This document shows, piece after piece, positions 10,112 through 33,993 of a stretch of DNA of 34,028 nt. The stretch's first letter is position 1, and the number at the start of each line of letters is the position of its first letter. The notes beneath the pieces were generated by a model. It saw only the letters and a program-made list of their open reading frames with translations, was not told the origin of the DNA and did not search any database. The stretch is from NCBI GenBank assembly GCA_944323985.1, contig CALUUP010000015.1:1-34028 (forward strand), written 5' to 3'. The position numbers and the translations under genes are program-made. This DNA is from Candidatus Gastranaerophilales bacterium. GTDB taxonomy: Bacteria > Cyanobacteriota > Vampirovibrionia > Gastranaerophilales > Gastranaerophilaceae.

Positions 10112-10188
10112 TGGTCGGGATGACACGATTCGAACGTGCGACCCCCTCGTCCCAAGCGAGGTGCGCTACCAAGCTGCGCTACATCCCG
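10112..10188 (-). tRNA. tRNA-Pro (anticodon TGG), CCA encoded
   Basis: 77 nt on the minus strand folding as a full cloverleaf: acceptor CGGGATG/CATCCCG, D-arm GCGC AGCTTGGTA GCGC, anticodon loop CTTGGGA with TGG, and T-arm with GTTCGAATC. The 3' CCA is encoded in the DNA. Two tandem repeat units upstream carry copies of the tRNA's first 11 nt. Confidence 0.97.
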
Positions 10189-10328
10189 TTATTCAGTTTT
10201 CAAGTTTTCTTCTAAATGCAGCTTGGTATATCTTATATACGGCTCTCTCGAGGCTTAGCCTCTCGTCTCGCCTACCTCCACCCAAAACGATACTTAATCG
10301 TTTTGTTCGGAGTCCTTGCTACATCCCG
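10189..10328 (-). repeat. tRNA-Pro leader repeat, unit nearest the tRNA (140 bp)
   Basis: Read in the tRNA direction, the unit starts with CGGGATGTAGC (10328-10318), identical to the first 11 nt of tRNA-Pro. Next come CTCC, a 9-bp hairpin (CAAAACGAT/ATCGTTTTG), TGGAG, AGGCGAGACGAG, a GAGGC/GCCTC hairpin and a GTATAT/ATATAC hairpin. Then comes TACCAAGCTGC (10228-10218), the exact antisense of 11 nt in the tRNA D-arm (10167-10177). It ends with CTTGAAAACTGAATAA, a copy of the original tRNA leader. Not a gene: frames across it are an accident of the repeat. It appears to be transcribed as part of the tRNA precursor. Confidence 0.85.
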
Positions 10329-10468
10329 TTATTCAGTTTTCAAGTTTTCTTCTAAATGCAGCTTGGTATATCTTATATACGGCTCTCTCGAGGCTTTGCC
10401 TCTCGTTTCGCCTACCTCCATCCAAAACGATACTTAATCGTTTTGTTCGGAGTCCTTGCTACATCCCG
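10329..10468 (-). repeat. tRNA-Pro leader repeat, distal unit (140 bp)
   Basis: A second copy directly in tandem, identical to the proximal unit at 137 of 140 positions. The three differences fall in predicted unpaired positions (hairpin loop AAA versus TAA, the GAAACG versus GAGACG linker, and GGAT versus GGGT), while all stems are unchanged. Upstream of it (10469-10484) only the leader piece GTTGAAAACTAAATAA remains. That marks the junction with the original tRNA leader. Confidence 0.85.
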
Positions 10469-33365: not shown

Positions 33366-33393
33366 TTGATAAATATTTTTTAGCAAATAGAAT
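33366..33393 (+). promoter_or_regulatory. Promoter for the tRNA-Phe repeat leader and tRNA
   Basis: TTGATA (33366-33371), a 16-nt spacer and TAGAAT (33388-33393). Transcription would begin near 33400, before both repeat units, so the units would be part of the tRNA precursor, as at the tRNA-Pro locus. Confidence 0.6.
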
Positions 33394-33415: not shown

Positions 33416-33609
33416 GCCGCAATAGCTCCCTTGAGTGGAGTCGAAGGCGGAACGGGTTAGAGATAATGTAGAGCTTGCTCTGCCAACCCGATGAAAATTA
33501 AATATAAGATATGCCGCAATAGCTCCCTTGAGTGGAGTCGAAGGCGGAACGGGTTAGAGATAATGTAGAGCTTGCTCTGCCAACCCGATGAAAATTAAAT
33601 ATAAGATAT
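33416..33609 (+). repeat. tRNA-Phe leader repeat: two identical 97-bp tandem units
   Basis: Units 33416-33512 and 33513-33609 are identical. Each starts with GCCGCAATAGCTC, the first 13 nt of tRNA-Phe. Then come CTCC...GGAG and AGTCGAAGGCGGAACGGG, and a GGGTT/AACCC stem enclosing AGAGC-TT-GCTCT. CTTGCTCTGCCAAC (33474-33487 and 33571-33584) is antisense, with one G-U pair, to tRNA D-arm positions 33624-33637. The unit ends with AAATATAAGATAT, resembling the sequence just upstream of the first unit. No open reading frame of note. Same plan as the tRNA-Pro repeats. Confidence 0.88.
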
Positions 33610-33682
33610 GCCGCAATAGCTCAGTTGGTAGAGCAAGGGACTGAAAATCCCTGTGTCCTTGGTTCAATTCCGAGTTGCGGCA
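33610..33682 (+). tRNA. tRNA-Phe (anticodon GAA)
   Basis: 73 nt with a full cloverleaf: acceptor GCCGCAA/TTGCGGC, D-arm GCTC AGTTGGTA GAGC, anticodon stem AGGGA/TCCCT with loop CTGAAAA, T-arm CTTGG TTCAATT CCGAG, discriminator A. CCA is not encoded, unlike tRNA-Pro here. A T-run (33685-33691) follows and may terminate transcription. Confidence 0.97.
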
Positions 33683-33772
33683 TATTTTTTTGTTAAAATC
33701 ATCAATGATTATAGAAATAAAAAAATTTAGTAGTTTAGTTAAAGCTCAATCTATAATTTTTATATCATTGAA

Positions 33773-33993
33773 CAGACATTGCAGGAATTTGATTTTTTTT
33801 GAACGAATAGAAAGTAGGATGTGGTAAATCTATGATTTACCGCATCAATAATATAATGTTTCGGTAATCATAGATTACCAAAATCTACTAATTTTTATAC
33901 TCAAACCAGTTGTCCAAAATTATCAAACAAATTGTCGTTTTACAATTATGGTTTGACAGACATTGCAGGAATTTGATTTTTTTGAACTAATAG
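33773..33993 (+). repeat. Direct repeat pair of about 37 bp
   Basis: Copies at 33773-33810 and 33957-33993 begin CAGACATTGCAGGAATTTGA, continue with a T-run, and end GAAC(G/T)AATAG. They differ by one T in the run and one base near the end. They bracket about 146 bp containing two hairpins. Confidence 0.8.
33823..33879. repeat. Two related hairpins, one the inverse of the other
   Basis: GGTAAATC-TAT-GATTTACC (33823-33841) and GGTAATC-ATA-GATTACC (33863-33879). The central AATCTATGATT of the first is the exact reverse complement of the centre of the second. They are not followed by T-runs, so they are not typical terminators. Confidence 0.7.

Follow-up and report, generated by a model that had tools for sequence, protein, structure and literature searches.

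Genomic islands and integrative and conjugative elements (ICEs) that enter tRNA genes by means of tyrosine recombinases leave the tRNA intact, with its end duplicated at a distance as a direct repeat. The 178-bp repeats (rtT) at tyrT of Escherichia coli are arranged in tandem and each contains the end of the tRNA, at one locus and on its 3' side; we know of no fold-back and no mobile module in them. A different kind of small repeat is the repetitive extragenic palindrome (REP), and RAYT transposases are hypothesised to mobilise the GTAG-tagged REPs (PMC3733652). Here, we describe short units next to the tRNA-Phe and tRNA-Pro genes in 34,028 nucleotides (nt) of contig CALUUP010000015.1 of a Candidatus Gastranaerophilales bacterium (the window), in which a copy of the outer half of the tRNA is combined with a structured module and an antisense arm. 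No description of such units was found in the literature. In the Gastranaerophilales, gut-inhabiting relatives of the Cyanobacteria, almost every second tRNA gene, as well as the gene for tmRNA, bears them beside one end, which suggests that repeats of an undescribed class systematically land or arise at tRNA genes.

At the tRNA-Phe gene, the initial annotation of this DNA had pointed out two identical 97-bp units that each open with the 5' end of the tRNA. Indeed, the two units are identical at 97 of 97 bases, TRF found a 97-bp period with 99% match, and nt 1-13 of tRNA-Phe (GCCGCAATAGCTC) begin at 33416, 33513 and 33610, the last being the start of the tRNA itself as determined with ARAGORN. 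Each unit has the order GCCGCAATAGCTC, module, GTAGAGC, TT, GCTCTGCCAAC, leader, and the locus is composed as follows:

33416..33512, plus strand: outer unit 1, 97 bp, defined by its identity to unit 2
33416..33428, plus strand: copy of tRNA-Phe nt 1-13 (GCCGCAATAGCTC) in unit 1
33429..33467, plus strand: structured module at the D-loop position of unit 1, from an alignment of 23 Phe units
33468..33487, plus strand: fold-back hairpin of unit 1, GTAGAGC (D-arm sense), TT, GCTCTGCCAAC (D-arm antisense)
33513..33609, plus strand: unit 2, 97 bp, adjoining the tRNA, defined by its identity to unit 1
33513..33525, plus strand: copy of tRNA-Phe nt 1-13 in unit 2
33526-33564, plus strand: structured module at the D-loop position of unit 2, same as in unit 1
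33565..33584, plus strand: fold-back hairpin of unit 2
33585..33609, plus strand: leader copy with the recurring TGAAAATTAAATA motif
33610..33682, plus strand: intact tRNA-Phe(GAA)
33366..33393, plus strand: probable promoter of the tRNA-Phe transcript, TTGATA ... TAGAAT, as read from the sequence

The antisense D-arm, which forms the fold-back hairpin, had not been mentioned in the initial annotation and is the most informative part of the unit. The leader copy described there is only partly a copy, since the leader of the tRNA and that of the unit have little in common beyond AAGATRT. The leader motif TGAAAATTAAATA / TGACAATTAAATAA recurs at many tRNAs (in the window, for example, at 33585-33609), unit-free ones included, and might be a boxA-like or processing signal. 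Sequences similar to the putative promoter (TTGATT ... TANAAT) were found upstream of empty tRNA-Phe loci of relatives. On the 3' side of tRNA-Phe, the direct repeat GACAGACATTGCAGGAATTTGATTTTTTT is present at 33771-33805 and 33957-33990, about 187 bp apart.

The tRNA-Pro gene on the minus strand shares the design, as had been claimed, with a period of 140 instead of 97 bp and with copies of CGGGATGTAGC that begin at 10468, 10328 and 10188; the module families recur at further, unrelated tRNAs. The parts are:

10329..10468, minus strand: outer unit, 140 bp, with copy of nt 1-11, type A module, antisense D-arm and leader
10368-10358, minus strand: antisense D-arm TACCAAGCTGC of the outer unit
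10189..10328, minus strand: inner unit, 140 bp, with antisense D-arm at 10228-10218
10112..10188, minus strand: intact tRNA-Pro(TGG), found with ARAGORN

The genome that holds the window (G000) comprises 1.86 Mb on 68 contigs and encodes 35 tRNAs; named relatives, which were retrieved via the neighbouring IF-3 gene, were mostly labelled Candidatus Gastranaerophilales. All genomes are metagenome assemblies in which unit arrays often reach contig ends. Copies were counted by a uniform test in which a 9-mer of the tRNA end (nt 2-10 for the 5' version) was sought up to 350 bp upstream or 400 bp downstream, with the 9-mer of another, mismatched tRNA as control; this test registers good copies only. 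In the window's genome, 10 out of 33 tRNAs had the 5' sequence repeated upstream (control, 0.5%) and 7 out of 32 had copies of the 3' end downstream (control, 0.3%), which together amounts to 15 kinds of tRNA. Among the tRNAs whose first nucleotides are repeated are Phe, Pro, Met, Lys-ctt, Asn, Val-gac, Leu-taa, Leu-caa and Leu-gag. At the tmRNA gene of the same genome there is a type D unit in which the first ~23 nt of the gene are repeated (GGGGATGTACTGGTTTTGRCGCC; L282, C2:39802-39907, minus strand). Five relatives (G063, G048, G064, G214 and G225) behaved alike in the test, and in G225 antisense 3' units are found at the tmRNA (L327). A genome of another family of the order (G250) has units on both the 5' and the 3' side, some of them in threefold tandem arrays with differing modules. 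In partial samples, none of 13 tRNAs had units in one genome of a third family, and none of 13 in one genome of another family of the class. These counts bear out the suggestion that further tRNAs with 5' repeats would be found in this genome and in its relatives, and the possibility that Phe and Pro stand alone is refuted. In G048, a tandem array of at least four type A units is cut off by the end of contig C40 (L270), probably towards an unassembled tRNA-Pro, and true copy numbers are therefore underestimated. That the units are chance tandem duplications or assembly artefacts without a shared cause is very improbable: the tandem repeats have differing periods and contigs with tRNAs often end near arrays, but units occur in many independent assemblies from two families of the order, at 30% of tRNAs against 0.5% in the control, with shared modules and mirror symmetry.

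In the 5' units, the 5' strand of the acceptor stem and the start of the D-arm are followed usually by the structured module, often by the remainder of the D-arm, in most cases by the antisense D-arm, and then by the leader and the intact tRNA. The antisense D-arm often stands directly after the D-arm's own 3' part, and unit leaders hold a motif like TGAAAATTAAATA. In the 3' units the order is the mirror image (tRNA, trailer, often a terminator, antisense T-arm, module, copy of the 3' end), with an antisense T-arm that is clear in some units and weak in others; because of this mirror relation, type B and such modules are read sense at 5' ends and antisense at 3' ends. Units are ~0.1-0.35 kb in size. 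The initial annotation had proposed a mechanism that targets the 5' ends of tRNAs, which was right in that the phenomenon is general at tRNAs and too narrow in that mirror units occur at the 3' ends of tRNAs and tmRNA. An explanation purely by the 5' leader or by RNase P was dropped for the same reason, namely the existence of 3' units.

A sense/antisense pair at a short distance was found in 42 of 83 units, compared to 9% of mismatched tests; an example is TGGTAGCG, A, CGCTACCAAGCTGC (L170). The longest complement to nt 8-28 had a mean length of 9.9 nt for the own tRNA and of 5.7 nt for other isotypes. The D-arm of tRNA-Pro differs between species (GCAGCTTGG or GCAGTTTGG) and the antisense of the type A units varies along with it. 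Filled and empty sites exist side by side: of 77 tRNA-Phe loci, ~25 bear units and the remainder have a plain leader, and an antisense D-arm was found only where units are present. When Phe loci were selected by the fold-back hairpin alone, 22 out of 23 had the outer copy, which matched the tRNA at 10-13 of 13 nt, indicating that the parts of a unit go together. In the close pair G000/G063, the numbers of units were 2/0 at Phe, 1/0 each at Lys-ctt, Leu-gag and Arg-cct, and 2/1 at Asn, and the modules at tRNA-Pro in close relatives were A,A versus A,B. Inner units are mostly intact and outer units often degenerate. The identity of the two Phe units had been taken as a sign of recent amplification or active homogenisation; ordinary amplification and loss of direct repeats suffices to account for it, as the 2 versus 0 and 2 versus 1 units in the close pair illustrate.

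From these data we propose, with a probability of about 0.5, that each unit arose as a fold-back duplicate of one outer half of a tRNA or tmRNA gene, in most cases with a mobile hairpin module in or near the D-loop (5') or the T-loop region (3'). As we infer, a replicating strand would fold back at the hairpin of the D- or T-arm, copy itself and rejoin the template in the leader or trailer; no tRNA-specific enzyme would be needed to produce the order that is seen and its mirror image. The modules would be REP-like mobile hairpin DNA that moves via single-stranded hairpin intermediates, perhaps with Y1/RAYT transposases, and that enters the loops of the spare copy, where it would be harmless. 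Only events leaving an intact tRNA would survive, and since an intact tRNA is always left the duplications would be tolerated. Units would then be expanded, homogenised or deleted as the direct repeats recombine by a RecA-type or slippage process, in line with the differences in copy number.

The copies allow for a different reading. Since the upstream copy is able to pair with the 3' strand of the tRNA, the units could act as a selected cis-acting RNA device that gives the pre-tRNA two states and delays or regulates its maturation: in state 1 the 5' half within the tRNA takes part in its fold; in state 2 the 3' acceptor strand is bound by the upstream 5' copy instead, and the real D-arm is masked by the antisense D-arm. 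State 2 was the predicted minimum-energy fold in 11 of 12 sequences of unit plus tRNA, by 2-21 kcal/mol relative to separate folding, and in predicted folds of type D units together with Arg-cct or tmRNA, too, the 3' strand is captured by the copy upstream. The close fit of the outer copy in the hairpin-selected Phe loci and the GNRA- and CUUG-type loops seen by eye agree with such a device. However, two identical 5' strands and an antisense arm force this fold regardless of origin, 3' units often lie past intrinsic terminators with the module read on the antisense strand, most relatives have no units at tRNA-Phe, and degenerate outer copies persist (L044, L051 and L108). Because of the terminators, the many species without units and the fact that the fold follows from the copies, use of the RNA is not preferred, and we regard the device as possible but rather unlikely. 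The idea of units as working devices, be it mobile RNA modules that make pre-tRNAs bistable and regulate the supply of tRNA and tmRNA or self-guided elements that home to tRNA ends, is likewise doubtful.

The modules fall into families that recur at unrelated genes while the flanks are gene-specific. Type A is found at Pro, Lys-ctt and Leu-gag, type D at Arg-cct, Met and 5' of tmRNA, and type B at Pro, Leu-taa, Val, Met and Thr, antisense at the 3' ends of tRNAs and tmRNA and in dispersed intergenic copies, with up to ~25 copies per genome. Of 382 genomes of the class, 90 had the type B pattern, every one of them belonging to the window's own family, and the backward control of the pattern gave no match. 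In type B stems, 91.7% of cells are paired, both sides have changed in 10 of the 12 base pairs that make up the long helix, and shuffling gave 0/500 for paired cells as well as for the covariation score. As a pattern in the sequences, this shows conserved pairing but not necessarily RNA function, since template switching, which is known to generate perfect hairpins as well as compensatory changes, alone yields the latter (PMC8794818). In genus g14, type B is located within a dispersed intergenic repeat, at times twice per copy. This repeat (L320-L324, L328-L333 and L336-L339) has ~250-500 bp, the form TGTCTGAG...GTCAGTTGACWATATGAAA, nested type A/B modules and variable insertions; no adjoining transposase was seen at three loci checked.

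A link to RAYTs is suggested by two elements (Y1_Tnp) with GTAG-hairpin ends inside the hairpin loop of type B, one 3' of tRNA-Phe in G006 (L056, 1848-2402) and one 3' of tRNA-Met in G063 (L188, 1753-2283). The G006 element is flanked by its own GTAG-hairpins, and its ends are not of type B although it lies inside a type B hairpin; the type B module may be a preferred RAYT target. By eye, GGTAG, itself included in the pattern searched for, stands at the close of the type B module and ahead of a hairpin, and GGAG is found in Phe units. A Y1 transposase (PF01797) was detected in only 36 of 65 genomes of the genus.

Several observations weigh against fold-back duplication with mobile hairpins. 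In half of the units no sense/antisense pair was found within the thresholds, and some type B and D units are devoid of the antisense arm. The Phe unit has the same architecture across many species, for which selection may be needed. The dispersed copies are parts of larger repeats, and the PF01797 search gave no Y1 match in the unit-bearing G064; units in genomes without a Y1 transposase could be relics. Neither a transposition nor a template-switch event was caught in the act, and no microhomology rule was identified for the return jump to the leader.

Dedicated site-specific insertion, in which a tyrosine integrase or an RNA-guided enzyme places the units as cassettes at tRNA ends and the sense copy and antisense arm serve as attachment or guide sequences, can be compared with the bridge RNAs of IS110, in which one guide binds one strand of the first half of the target and the other guide the opposite strand of the second half. 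Each unit lies between direct repeats of the tRNA end, tRNAs and tmRNA can have units at either end, and the sense of one target half is combined with the antisense of the other, with a junction that moves with the module family. Against this stand the presence of modules away from tRNAs, the ability of fold-back to account for the antisense arm, and the finding that the short units contain no recombinase gene and no recognised ORF, with genes for IS110 or tyrosine recombinases not having been searched for; we consider such insertion improbable.

Other candidates were rejected. A transposon target-site duplication starting exactly at nt 1 of the tRNA does not fit, since the shared stretch, by eye, is variable (0-23 nt of leader plus nt 1..j) and there is thus no fixed duplication length. 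A search of unit loci with the covariance models of Rfam gave only tRNA and tmRNA at gathering score and no T-box or other described RNA family. A group I tRNA intron was dismissed on the grounds that the functional tRNA is uninterrupted in unit-bearing loci and no Rfam intron matched. RNase P RNA, taken as a control gene, has no half-gene unit; it is ~140 nt longer in G000 and G063 than in G064 by an insertion in P12. By eye only, the insert in rnpB of G000 (L372) resembles the tRNA-Met 3' unit of G214 (L362), with ..CCGCCGTTACG..TGATTGCACAGGCGGAATTAA.

With nearly half of them bearing folded-back partial copies of themselves in a small genome, tRNA genes constitute a visible, repeated natural experiment on hairpin-made duplications and the spread of mobile hairpins, and many filled/empty pairs are available to ask if template switching builds and maintains RNA-like stems. 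The units may also account for many contig breaks at tRNA genes in these metagenomes. Should the RNA fold be used, it would be a new way of controlling tRNA maturation.

Like tRNA-integrated islands and ICEs, the units duplicate the tRNA end as a direct repeat around an insert, but they are only ~0.1-0.35 kb long, too short to hold an integrase gene and without one, and many are located at the 5' end. With REPs, bacterial interspersed mosaic elements (BIMEs) and RAYTs (PMC3733652, PMC2817692) they have in common small, non-coding, palindromic repeats, here modules with, as read by eye, GTAG or GGAG beside a hairpin, and RAYT genes in many of the genomes, two of them inside the type B hairpin of a 3' unit. 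However, REPs are extragenic palindromes of 20-40 bp, whereas the units are tied to the ends of tRNAs and tmRNA, carry a host tRNA half plus antisense and are present in a genome without a detected RAYT. The repetitive and double hairpin elements of mitochondria (PMC2800124) resemble them, as far as the abstract goes, in recurrent invasion, structurally divergent hairpins and scattered distribution; those elements invade intergenic mitochondrial DNA, and fold-back copies of tRNA halves are not described in that abstract. Quasipalindrome or template-switch mutations (PMC7202029, PMC8794818) are described as small and local, unlike the gene-end duplications at many tRNA genes reported here, but they share reverse-complement copies beside their source and stems that are kept perfect, and their hallmark, a sense segment followed nearby by its own reverse complement, is present in the 42 of 83 units mentioned above, compared to 9% in the mismatched control.
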